In this document: positions 1,864 to 6,152 of the stretch, one piece after another
Layout of the letters: every line of letters begins with the position of its first letter
Position numbering within the stretch: the first letter of the stretch is position 1
Source of the DNA: Sulfurovum sp.
GTDB lineage: Bacteria > Campylobacterota > Campylobacteria > Campylobacterales > Sulfurovaceae
Assembly (NCBI GenBank): GCA_027065815.1
Contig: JAMONL010000160.1
Span: 1 to 35,070 of the forward strand
Direction of reading: 5' to 3'
Length of the DNA stretch: 35,070 bases
Position numbers and translations under genes: made by a program
The notes under the pieces: model-generated
Seen by the model: only the letters and a program-made list of their open reading frames with translations
What the model was told of the DNA's origin: nothing
Databases searched by the model: none

Positions 1864-2424
1864 ATGTCAACAAAAAATGTAAATAGTCTAAACAATGTAG
1901 ATCAGATAAGAGATCTTATTTTCGGTTCACAGATCAAGGATTTTGAAGAGAGATTCAATCAGATCAACAAAACGATGAATAGTATGAAAGAAGCTTTAAA
2001 CAGCAAGATGGATGAATCATATGAGAAGCTCAGCAAAGAGACTGAACGTGCTTTGGAGATTCTAGAGAAAAAGATAGACAATCTTGAACTTTCCACACAA
2101 AAAGAGCGTACTAAACTCAAAGAACTGATCGATACAACAGATGAATCAATTCAAGCACAGCTGCACAGCCAAAAAGACGAATTCTCTACAAAGCTGAAAG
2201 TACTCAAAGAAAATGTTTCAGATGAAAACAAAAAAGTACTTGCACAGGTTAAGGTAATGAAAGCCGAAATCGAAACAGCACTGAATGAAGGCCTTGATAC
2301 ACTTGGTGATGACAAACTTTCCAGAGATGCAATGGCACAGATGCTTCTGGATGTTGCTATGAAGATGCAGGGAACCGATGTCAATACCGTATTATCCCAA
2401 GGTATAAGCACTGAAGAAAAGTAA
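1864..2424 (+). CDS. Coiled-coil protein of unknown function; first gene of the OmpA/small-GTPase operon
   Basis: 186 aa, ATG, SD-like AAGGGAAG upstream. Heptad-rich K/E/L composition; conserved-looking C-terminus 'LSRDAMAQMLLDVAMKMQG'. Confidence 0.75.
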   Translation: MSTKNVNSLNNVDQIRDLIFGSQIKDFEERFNQINKTMNSMKEALNSKMDESYEKLSKETERALEILEKKIDNLELSTQKERTKLKELIDTTDESIQAQLHSQKDEFSTKLKVLKENVSDENKKVLAQVKVMKAEIETALNEGLDTLGDDKLSRDAMAQMLLDVAMKMQGTDVNTVLSQGISTEEK

Positions 2425-4357
2425 TTCACAGCTTGAAGAGCTTAAAAGACTTCTTCTTGAGCCTGAGCTTGAACAGCTAAAAAAACTCTCATCAGCATTA
2501 GAAAAACTTGATCTCCGTTTTGAAGACAAAGAGGATGTTATCAAGAGGATCACCCCTCTTTTAGATACGATCCTGCTTCAGAACCTTGAAAACAAGAATG
2601 CCCGGACGGTAGAAATACTGGCGGAGCATCTTGCCCGGATCATAGAACATGCTTCCCAAATACACTTGCCTGAACTCAGTGACTCTCTGCAAAAGGTGAT
2701 TGCTCCGGCTATCTCCAAAGAGATCGCAAACAATCAAGACGTGATGATCGACGCACTTTATCCCATTATGGGCGGAATGATCTCAAAATATGTCACGCAG
2801 TCCATCAAAGAGCTGATGGAACAGATCAACCGGAAGATCGAGAATGGCCTTTCCACAGAGCGCTTCAAACGCAAGCTAAAAGCTAAATTTACCGGTGTCA
2901 GTGAAACAGAACTACTTATGGAAGAGAGCAGTGATGCAGTGATCTCAGCACTGTTCGTGATCCATAAAGATACAGGACTGCTTATCTCTTCGGCAAGTAT
3001 GGCAAAACGTGAAATTGATGATCCTCAAATGGTTGCTTCCATGGCAAGTGCCATTAAGGACTTCATCAATGACTGGATCAATAAACATCAGGAAAACAAG
3101 GAAGAGATACAGATACTCAGTTATGGAAATGCGACACTCTATATAGAAAGTGCCGGTTCGGTCTATGTCATCGCTTTTCTTGACAGTGAGCCTGACTATG
3201 AGCTTCGCTCAGAGATCAACCGCTTTTTTGCATCGATCGTCAAGCAATATGCTTTGTATTTTCAAAATTTTGACGGGGATGATAGTGCTCCTGAAGTTTC
3301 AGAGATTTCTCAAAAAATGCAAGATTATCTTCTTTTACAGACAGACTTTGACAGATCCAGTACATCTGTCCAAAAGCATAATCCTGCAAAACTCATTTTT
3401 CTTGCATTAGGTGTACTGCTACTGGGATATGGAGGCTATATTGCAAATGAATGGTACAAGATCCGTATACTTGAAACCCAGATAAAACAAAAAACTGCAC
3501 AAGAGATCACACTGAATGCTCATGACAACACAATTGAACTTAACGGATATGTTGATACCCTGAAGCATATCCCCGAAGTGATTGATCTGATTGGAGAAAA
3601 AACAGGAAAGCCCGTTATTAATCATCTGATACTCAGTACCAAGGGGCAGGAGTATTTGTTCGCAAAACAACAAAAGAATATCCAAGACGACGAACAGAAG
3701 CTAACATTACTGCAAAAACAATTTTCTGAGACTACAAAACCAGTCCTGGAATCTATAGCAGAGTTACAAAAGAAGATCGTCTTGCTTGAAGCAAAAGAAA
3801 CAGAGATTCACCACATCTTGCATATTAAAGATGAAATTGCTTCAAAACTCTTTACAGCAATGAAAAATAATCCTTTTTACAACAGGCAGGAGCAGGCATT
3901 GGACTTTGCCAAACTACACCTTTTTTCAGTACAGCAAGTTGACTATAATCCCAAAGAGATCAATGCTGTGAAAAAAACCTTTGAACACTATCTGTCAGTA
4001 TTACTGCCGTATAGAGCCTATCTAAAAAAGATCATTATCGAAGGTCACAGTGACAGCAGTGGTACAGCTGCGAACAATATGGTGCTTACACAGAAGAGAG
4101 CTGATGTAGTCAAAACATACCTTTTAAAACAACCGTTCGTTCAAAAAGCACATATAGAAAACCTGCTTGAATCTGTAGGAAGTGCCAGTAAAGAGATTAT
4201 ACTGGTGAATGATCAAGAGGATCACAACGCATCAAGAAGGATTATGATACGGTTTGAACTTGATCCGGATATGGTGTATGAAACTATGCAGAAAGTGTTT
4301 AATATCCAACAGAAAGACGATATAATCAATAGAAACGGTAGCAAGGAAAAACTATGA
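2411..4357 (+). CDS. Membrane protein: N-terminal helical region, Roadblock/LC7-like domain, transmembrane helix, BON-like segment, coiled coil, C-terminal OmpA/MotB peptidoglycan-binding domain
   Basis: The supplied ORF begins at TTG 2666, but the frame is open back to TAA 2405-2407 and the upstream codons read as protein (KKSNSQLEELKRLLLEPELEQLKKL...). Proposed start is CTG 2411 with AAGG 8 nt upstream. TM 'KLIFLALGVLLLGYGGYIA'; OmpA motif 'IIIEGHSDSSGTAANNMVLTQKRADVVKTYLL'. Confidence 0.8.
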   Translation: MKKSNSQLEELKRLLLEPELEQLKKLSSALEKLDLRFEDKEDVIKRITPLLDTILLQNLENKNARTVEILAEHLARIIEHASQIHLPELSDSLQKVIAPAISKEIANNQDVMIDALYPIMGGMISKYVTQSIKELMEQINRKIENGLSTERFKRKLKAKFTGVSETELLMEESSDAVISALFVIHKDTGLLISSASMAKREIDDPQMVASMASAIKDFINDWINKHQENKEEIQILSYGNATLYIESAGSVYVIAFLDSEPDYELRSEINRFFASIVKQYALYFQNFDGDDSAPEVSEISQKMQDYLLLQTDFDRSSTSVQKHNPAKLIFLALGVLLLGYGGYIANEWYKIRILETQIKQKTAQEITLNAHDNTIELNGYVDTLKHIPEVIDLIGEKTGKPVINHLILSTKGQEYLFAKQQKNIQDDEQKLTLLQKQFSETTKPVLESIAELQKKIVLLEAKETEIHHILHIKDEIASKLFTAMKNNPFYNRQEQALDFAKLHLFSVQQVDYNPKEINAVKKTFEHYLSVLLPYRAYLKKIIIEGHSDSSGTAANNMVLTQKRADVVKTYLLKQPFVQKAHIENLLESVGSASKEIILVNDQEDHNASRRIMIRFELDPDMVYETMQKVFNIQQKDDIINRNGSKEKL

Positions 4358-4440
4358 AACAGACACAATTGATACTGAATGCAATCCTCTCGAAAGATAT
4401 TTCTACAAAAGAATCTACAGTACCCAAAAGGATACAATAG
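4354..4440 (+). CDS. 28-aa micro-ORF (MKQTQLILNAILSKDISTKESTVPKRIQ), ATGA overlap with the OmpA gene stop and in frame with the following GTPase
   Basis: ATG at 4354 overlaps TGA 4355-4357; SD-like AAGGA 7-8 nt upstream; TAG 4438-4440; same frame as ATG 4444. Confidence 0.45.
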   Translation: MKQTQLILNAILSKDISTKESTVPKRIQ

Positions 4441-4443
4441 ATA

Positions 4444-4947
4444 ATGATATCAAAAAAAATAATTTTGATCGGAGATTTCGCAACGGGGAAAACAAGTTTT
4501 ATCCGTCGCTATGTAGATAACCAATTCAGCGATACCTACTTGAGCACGATCGGCGTAAAGATATCAAGAAAAAATATTGCACTGGAACATGAAACCGTTC
4601 AGGGACTGATCTGGGATATAGAAGGTGGTACAGAAATAAAACCGGTCAATACTACTTATCTGACTGGGGCACACGGCTGTATTATTGTTGCAGATATCAC
4701 AAGAGAAGAGACCATTGAACATATTGCTAACTATTTAAAAACCATTGGAGACATCATACCTTCAGCACCTGTTATTCTTGTACTGAACAAACGTGACATG
4801 CTTGAAAATATTACTGCAAAAAATATCCTTGAACAGGTCAAACAACAGTATGGCCAAACGGTAAATGATATTTATCTGGGTTCAGCAAAAAGTGGTAGCG
4901 GTGTTGAAGAGGTATTCTACACTTTAGCACACTCTATGCTTACTTAG
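4444..4947 (+). CDS. Rab/Ras-like small GTPase
   Basis: G1 'GDFATGKTS'; switch I 'YLSTIGVKIS' (Rab-like TIGV); G3 'WDIEGG'; G4 'NKRD'; G5-like 'GSAKSG'; 167 aa single-domain size. Confidence 0.9.
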   Translation: MISKKIILIGDFATGKTSFIRRYVDNQFSDTYLSTIGVKISRKNIALEHETVQGLIWDIEGGTEIKPVNTTYLTGAHGCIIVADITREETIEHIANYLKTIGDIIPSAPVILVLNKRDMLENITAKNILEQVKQQYGQTVNDIYLGSAKSGSGVEEVFYTLAHSMLT

Positions 4948-4958
4948 AAAGGAGTTGT

Positions 4959-6152
4959 ATGCATATACAAGAAATTTTAAATGCGATCAATGCAAATCAT
5001 CTCTATGAATACATGGTCATAGATGAAAATTTACAGATCATTGAATATTCTGATATGGTCTTTCATTTATGTGAGACCAGTATTATAAATTATGCTGATA
5101 TGAGTCTTACTCAGGTCGTTCCTGAGCTCTACGGTATGGAAGCTGAAATAGAAAAAATATTTCAAAAAGAAAGAGAAGTACTCACGCTTCCCTATATTGT
5201 TAAGAATACGGATCAATATGTGCATATCCATATCCATCCCGGACGAACGAGCAAAGAAAAGAAAGATCACTGCGAAACATTGATCATACTGTTTGAAAAT
5301 ATCACACAACAGGCAAATATACAGCAAAAACTGATTCAGGAACGCAATGAAAAATCTCTACTTTTAAAAGAAATCTCTGAAAAAAATATGCAGCTGAAAC
5401 GCTTTAATGAAGAAATGCAAGTAATGGTAGATAGCGAAATAAAGAAAAGTCGTGAGAATCAGAAAATAATGGAGATACAGTCACGCCATGCCCAAATTGG
5501 CGAAATGATAGGAATGGTCACCCATCAGTGGAAACAGCCGCTCAATGTGATCAACCTGATCATGAATGTACTAAAAATAAAACTGAAAAAAGATCCTATT
5601 GAAATAGATATGTTCTACGAAACACTCGATAAAGTAATAATGCAAGTCAAACATTTAAATCAAACAGTGGTGGATTTCCAGAATTTCTTCAATCCTATGA
5701 AGGAAAGGGTGCAGTTTAACCTCTTTGAGCATATAGAGAGTGTACTGAGACTGCTTGAATCCGAATACCAATACAAGTATATCGGTATTATGATAGAAGG
5801 AGACAGGAATATCTTCGCATATGGCTACCCCAATGAATTCAAGCAGATACTTCTTTCCCTCTTGAAAAATGCCAAAGATGCATTTGAAGAAAACCCTCAT
5901 GAAAATATGCAAATCACTATTGCTATTTCCATAGATAGTGGACATGCTTGTGTACAGATCAAAGACAATGCAGGAGGTATTCCTGTCAATATGCTCGATA
6001 CACTGTTCGATCTTTATGTCACAAGTAAAAAAGAGGGGTCGGGATTGGGGCTGAATATCGCCAAAAGTATGGTTGAAAATATGCAGGGTAGTTTGACTGC
6101 ACAAAACCTTGAAGATGGTGCAGAATTTTCCCTCTTCCTTCCTTTTCATTAA
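4959..6152 (+). CDS. PAS-domain sensor histidine kinase, no predicted transmembrane helix
   Basis: H-box 'GEMIGMVTHQWKQPLNVINL'; N-box 'LLSLLKNAKDAFEE'; G-boxes 'IKDNAGGIP', 'GSGLGLNIAKSMVE'; N-terminal PAS-like region; AAAGGAG SD. Confidence 0.9.
   Translation: MHIQEILNAINANHLYEYMVIDENLQIIEYSDMVFHLCETSIINYADMSLTQVVPELYGMEAEIEKIFQKEREVLTLPYIVKNTDQYVHIHIHPGRTSKEKKDHCETLIILFENITQQANIQQKLIQERNEKSLLLKEISEKNMQLKRFNEEMQVMVDSEIKKSRENQKIMEIQSRHAQIGEMIGMVTHQWKQPLNVINLIMNVLKIKLKKDPIEIDMFYETLDKVIMQVKHLNQTVVDFQNFFNPMKERVQFNLFEHIESVLRLLESEYQYKYIGIMIEGDRNIFAYGYPNEFKQILLSLLKNAKDAFEENPHENMQITIAISIDSGHACVQIKDNAGGIPVNMLDTLFDLYVTSKKEGSGLGLNIAKSMVENMQGSLTAQNLEDGAEFSLFLPFH

Follow-up and report, generated by a model that had tools for sequence, protein, structure and literature searches.

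The window, a stretch of 35,070 nucleotides representing contig 160 of a Sulfurovum sp. assembly (2.1 Mb in 247 contigs, about 86% complete), carries four genes in tight succession on the + strand (1864-6152), an arrangement that the preliminary description had pointed out and that we could confirm. The first gene (1864-2424) encodes a coiled-coil protein of 186 residues without a transmembrane helix or a specific Pfam family, and a homolog occupies the same first position at all 23 loci compared. The second gene (2411-4357) encodes a 648-residue protein, counted from a CTG start, in which a predicted Roadblock/LC7-like core domain (residues 161-290; 2891-3280, + strand) is followed by a single transmembrane helix (LIFLALGVLLLGYGGYIAN, residues 328-346; 3392-3448, + strand) and a periplasmic OmpA domain (residues ~522-613; 3974-4249, + strand). 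The helix coincides with a hydropathy peak, in agreement with the one membrane segment proposed earlier at about 3389-3451. The proposed peptidoglycan-binding character of the OmpA domain is likewise borne out by a match to PF00691 (E 1e-9), by NCBIfam OmpA-type models and by a GHSD motif. No Pfam family convincingly covers the N-terminal half of this protein. The third gene (4444-4947, + strand) encodes a Rab-like small GTPase of 167 residues. The fourth (4959-6152, + strand) encodes a cytosolic PAS-type histidine kinase of 397 residues without a transmembrane helix (HATPase_c, E 5.2e-18), the putative output module. An RNB-domain protein fragment and an open reading frame without a Pfam match lie 5' of these genes, and the frames 3' of them look by eye like rpsF, ssb and rpsR. 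The nearest relative found is a locus from another Sulfurovum metagenome-assembled genome (L007), with an OmpA protein that is 90% identical.

Start of the OmpA gene and a remnant reading frame

The OmpA gene probably starts at the CTG codon at 2411-2413, which lies within the 3' end of the coiled-coil gene. No ATG, GTG or TTG lies 5' of the conserved N-terminus, which would be lost if translation began at TTG 2666, the standard start that follows. The window and seven relatives (L007, L008, L018, L019, L069, L071 and L072) share a CTG at this position, and a purine-rich, Shine-Dalgarno-like stretch is visible by eye a few bases 5' of it. ATG takes its place in several relatives that do not belong to this group (L020-L022, L073 and L074).

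A micro-ORF (4354-4440, + strand) sits between the OmpA and GTPase genes and had been counted as a member of the gene run, a claim that did not hold. In L007, a 1-base deletion breaks its frame; L008 has a direct overlap between the GTPase frame and the 3' end of the OmpA gene. When the first 16 residues of the micro-ORF were compared with 1694 open reading frames, the five best matches were the starts of output proteins of relatives; these scored 46-56, while none of 20 shuffled peptides exceeded 44. Because of these matches we regard it as a remnant and not a gene, likely a fossil of an earlier output gene; the matches and the broken frame in L007 also led us to reject a functional peptide. 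Such a remnant is consistent with outputs having been swapped over time, hinting at past exchange.

Gene order, output proteins and the Rup family

The profile of the N-terminal domain of the OmpA protein matched 17 of 397 Campylobacterota genomes, and the GTPase profile gave full-length, adjacent matches in exactly the same 17. These carriers belong to four families, and their distribution is patchy even inside the genus. Were the genomes independent, an identical set would arise by chance with a probability of about 1e-29 (one over the number of ways of choosing 17 of 397), a figure that relatedness weakens. Among 72,556 plasmid records, the domain was present in four (Nostoc, Mesorhizobium and two Rhizobium) and the GTPase in the same four; no relatives were found in viral contigs. 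The order coiled coil-OmpA-GTPase is kept at 23 of 23 loci from Campylobacterota, Nostoc and rhizobia. Thirteen of these loci supplied the training set of the coiled-coil profile; nine more, all Campylobacterota loci fetched later, had no part in it. Gene order and spacing are thus conserved far beyond chance. The strict co-occurrence and the fixed order support the earlier suggestion that the GTPase is a likely partner of the OmpA protein.

Four further matches were left out of these counts. L025 had only a weak OmpA-protein match, with GTPase and coiled coil absent. The GTPase-profile matches L079 (G234 C70) and L080 (G210 C149) are not Rup proteins; they are Ras-like domains in open reading frames of 968 and 783 residues, apart from any Rup module. 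L078 (G314 contig C6) was set aside as lying on a contig of eukaryotic appearance: the Rab-like match has in-frame TAG/TAA codons and is surrounded by cysteine-rich repeat frames, which suggests contamination by a eukaryote whose stop codons are reassigned, possibly a ciliate.

The fourth position of the module is exchangeable. It holds a histidine kinase in the window, L007, L008 and Nostoc, a GGDEF protein at 14 of 23 loci and a class III cyclase on three rhizobial plasmids; it is cut by a contig end at one of the 23 loci and was not found at one. In the rhizobial copies (L027, L028 and L029), the gene 3' of the GTPase encodes a class III adenylate/guanylate cyclase. The histidine-kinase output of the preliminary description therefore needs qualifying: a PAS kinase is indeed present here, but it is one among several outputs that can replace each other. 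This wide variation in output type, and the fact that no response regulator gene was seen adjacent to the kinase in the window, would fit genes that are co-inherited as an operon while the kinase stays outside GTPase control and works in a separate pathway from the OmpA protein. We consider that very unlikely, given that very different outputs occupy the same position directly 3' of the GTPase gene and that most of them have a PAS-like N-terminal region in common.

The GTPase itself matches PF00071 (Ras, E 3.5e-31), and its best 60 matches in the PDB are all of the Rab/Ypt/Sec4 type, which places it closer to Rab/Ras than to MglA as judged by these matches. Its length lies inside the 150-240 residue range of Group 1 Rup proteins, which among bacterial GTPases are described as the nearest to eukaryotic Rab/Ras (PMC4316618). 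The Group 1 Rup system was described bioinformatically by Wuichet & Sogaard-Andersen in 2014 (PMC4316618), with Rup proteins reported in epsilon-Proteobacteria among other taxa and with diguanylate cyclase/phosphodiesterase (DGC/PDE) or histidine kinase proteins as typical outputs. The components given in that paper, namely a coiled coil, a conserved domain-TM-OmpA protein, a Rup GTPase without the G3 Gln and an output module with a conserved N-terminal Gln, recur at our locus. It is therefore well supported that this locus belongs to the Group 1 Rup signaling cassettes and that the module was already known, whereas the preliminary description had gone no further than calling the family of the OmpA protein probably not new. 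The paper reports no experimental characterization of Rup systems. Our literature search, which left subscription journals mostly outside its reach, found neither experimental work on Group 1 Rup nor later work linking Rup to OmpA or Roadblock proteins.

Predicted fold of the N-terminal domain

We obtained two AlphaFold2 models of the N-terminal domain, each from three sequences. Model 1 (2678-3322) reached a pLDDT of 47.4 and a pTM of 0.40, and model 2 (2861-3283) a pLDDT of 59.8 and a pTM of 0.52. In both, the predicted order is H-E-E-H-E-E-E-H, which fits the Roadblock topology of helix, two strands, helix, three strands and helix, at pLDDT values of about 47 and 60. In Foldseek searches of 350,542 PDB chains, the 18 best matches to model 1 were Myxococcus xanthus MglB (E 2.2e-5 to 3.1e-4, identity 20-25%), led by 6hjm (E 2.2e-5, identity 23%). 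All of the best 50 matches listed for this model were Roadblock-family proteins or chains of Rag, Ragulator, EGO and dynein complexes carrying them. For model 2, the best 50 listed comprised LAMTOR, Rag, MglB, and Asgard and Streptomyces Roadblock chains, together with one longin, CopZ1; for Roadblock chains, the TM-score normalized by target length reached 0.73 at best. Low-confidence models can mislead, yet a result this uniform across a library of this size would not be expected from a random fold. The models thus place a Roadblock-like core at 2891-3280, close to the cytosolic segment at about 2915-3265 for which the preliminary description had proposed a Roadblock/LC7 fold and suggested structure prediction; fold order and Foldseek matches agree with it in these low-confidence models (pLDDT 47.4 and 59.8).

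Evidence at the level of sequence is weak, and it points in the same direction. With hhalign, the domain profile aligned in register over 79-88 columns with seven Roadblock sequences at a probability of 4-5%, and none of 100 column-shuffled profiles reached its score. Alignment to two Roadblock proteins alone gave nothing useful (probabilities over all runs, 1-5%). In a comparison with M. xanthus MglB, the window domain outscored all 300 shuffles, the MglB sequence used being a residue-for-residue match, in full, to the 6h5b chain; most other members, taken singly, had no clear resemblance to MglB. A sequence-profile search of the PDB with the domain returned no Roadblock match. The invariant residues cluster on helix 2, and this helix, the stretch most conserved across phyla, reads M..AI..F..D. 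Stand-alone Robl_LC7 proteins were seen in two of 101 Campylobacterota genomes sampled (L030 in G003 and L031 in G086).

Could the domain instead adopt another profilin-like fold, such as a longin or GAF/PAS-like one, and serve mainly in dimerization or ligand sensing? The low pLDDT, the single longin within the best 50 Foldseek matches, a weak Pfam Fuz_longin match in one of 13 members and the failure of all 13 to match Robl_LC7 (PF03259) would be compatible with this. The predicted helix ahead of strand 1, followed by strand-strand-helix-three strands-helix, however, fits Roadblock proteins, which also provide nearly all of the top Foldseek matches, and we regard another fold as unlikely. 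A Roadblock fold is supported by prediction and is, in our assessment, highly probable for the N-terminal domain of the OmpA protein.

A proposed wall-to-cytosol switch and its relation to known systems

The G3 catalytic Gln is absent from 13 of 13 aligned GTPases, the window motif being WDIEGG, and the G3 Asp is retained. The GTPase is without a catalytic Gln of its own, and therefore residues must be contributed or moved into place by a partner. One candidate is the near-invariant Gln of the output proteins, which PMC4316618 proposes as assisting GTP hydrolysis. Here, Gln127 in the N-terminal region of the kinase (5337-5339, + strand) falls in the column of this Gln and is likely the residue noted for Group 1 Rup partners in that paper. 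The column holds Gln in 16 of 21 aligned outputs, Lys in L022, and a Gln only nearby in four short outputs.

The explanation that we favor, as somewhat the better bet, is that a wall-anchored Roadblock-type domain recruits and controls the Rab-like GTPase, which in turn switches the output. The OmpA domain would be fixed to peptidoglycan and the single helix would span the inner membrane, so that the Roadblock/LC7-type domain, which is probably a dimer, would face the cytoplasm. By analogy with MglB-MglA and Ragulator-Rag, this domain may recruit the GTPase and determine where it sits or which nucleotide it carries, and the GTP state could then switch the output protein, here the cytosolic histidine kinase. 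We infer that the two proteins may bind each other, that the domain might act as a GAP, a GEF or a scaffold, and that the GTPase state could depend on the state of the cell wall and be coupled to the kinase.

A serious competitor, to which we give a little less than even chances, makes the Roadblock-like domain a mere membrane platform of the Ragulator type and assigns stimulation of GTP hydrolysis to the conserved Gln of the output. The missing G3 Gln, the aligned output Gln and the presence of Ragulator/LAMTOR chains among the Foldseek matches are all consistent with such a division of labor, which also matches the 2014 proposal (PMC4316618). Against it stand the Lys of L022 and the four short outputs in which Gln lies only nearby.

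In PMC4316618, the N-terminal domain of Group 1 Rup systems is called unknown and has no MglB link, with no coupling between Rup and MglB (0 of 71); here the domain is predicted to be Roadblock-like. A probable new insight is thus that this previously unexplained domain is Roadblock-like, which is probably at odds with what was expected in 2014, namely that partners of this kind are missing from Rup GTPases. Whether Group 1 Rup systems do, after all, rely on a Roadblock partner, concealed within a membrane protein that is anchored to peptidoglycan, we judge to be evenly poised. If so, they would share the logic of MglA/MglB and Rag/Ragulator, the missing regulator would get a name, and a wall-to-cytosol GTPase switch would become directly testable with two small proteins. 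The class III cyclase of the rhizobial copies adds to the two outputs given as typical in PMC4316618.

The module resembles the MglA/MglB systems of Myxococcus and Thermus in pairing a Ras-like GTPase with a putative Roadblock-fold protein, the best Foldseek matches including MglB. MglB, however, is soluble and stands alone, whereas the domain here is fused to a transmembrane helix and an OmpA domain, and the GTPase is Rab-like (best PDB matches Rab1/Sec4) with a retained G3 Asp, which sets it apart from the MglA family. A stand-alone MglB was likewise not seen in the genome of the window, in which no separate Robl_LC7 (PF03259) gene was found, an absence that is not firm because this genome is only about 86% complete. 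Actinobacterial conservons (CvnA-D) also combine a histidine kinase, a Roadblock protein and a small GTPase in one operon, but they have no OmpA anchor, their GTPase is of the MglA family, their kinase is membrane-bound and their fourth protein is different. Ragulator/LAMTOR with the Rag GTPases offers the likeness of a membrane-anchored Roadblock platform for Ras-like GTPases; it is a eukaryotic, heteromeric, lysosomal complex, and the resemblance is limited to fold and layout. Roadblock domains act as regulators of small GTPases both in human cells and in the motility of bacteria, and, if the proposed switch is correct, the module would be a bacterial counterpart of the membrane-anchored Ragulator, passing the state of the cell wall to exchangeable histidine kinase, c-di-GMP or cyclic nucleotide outputs.
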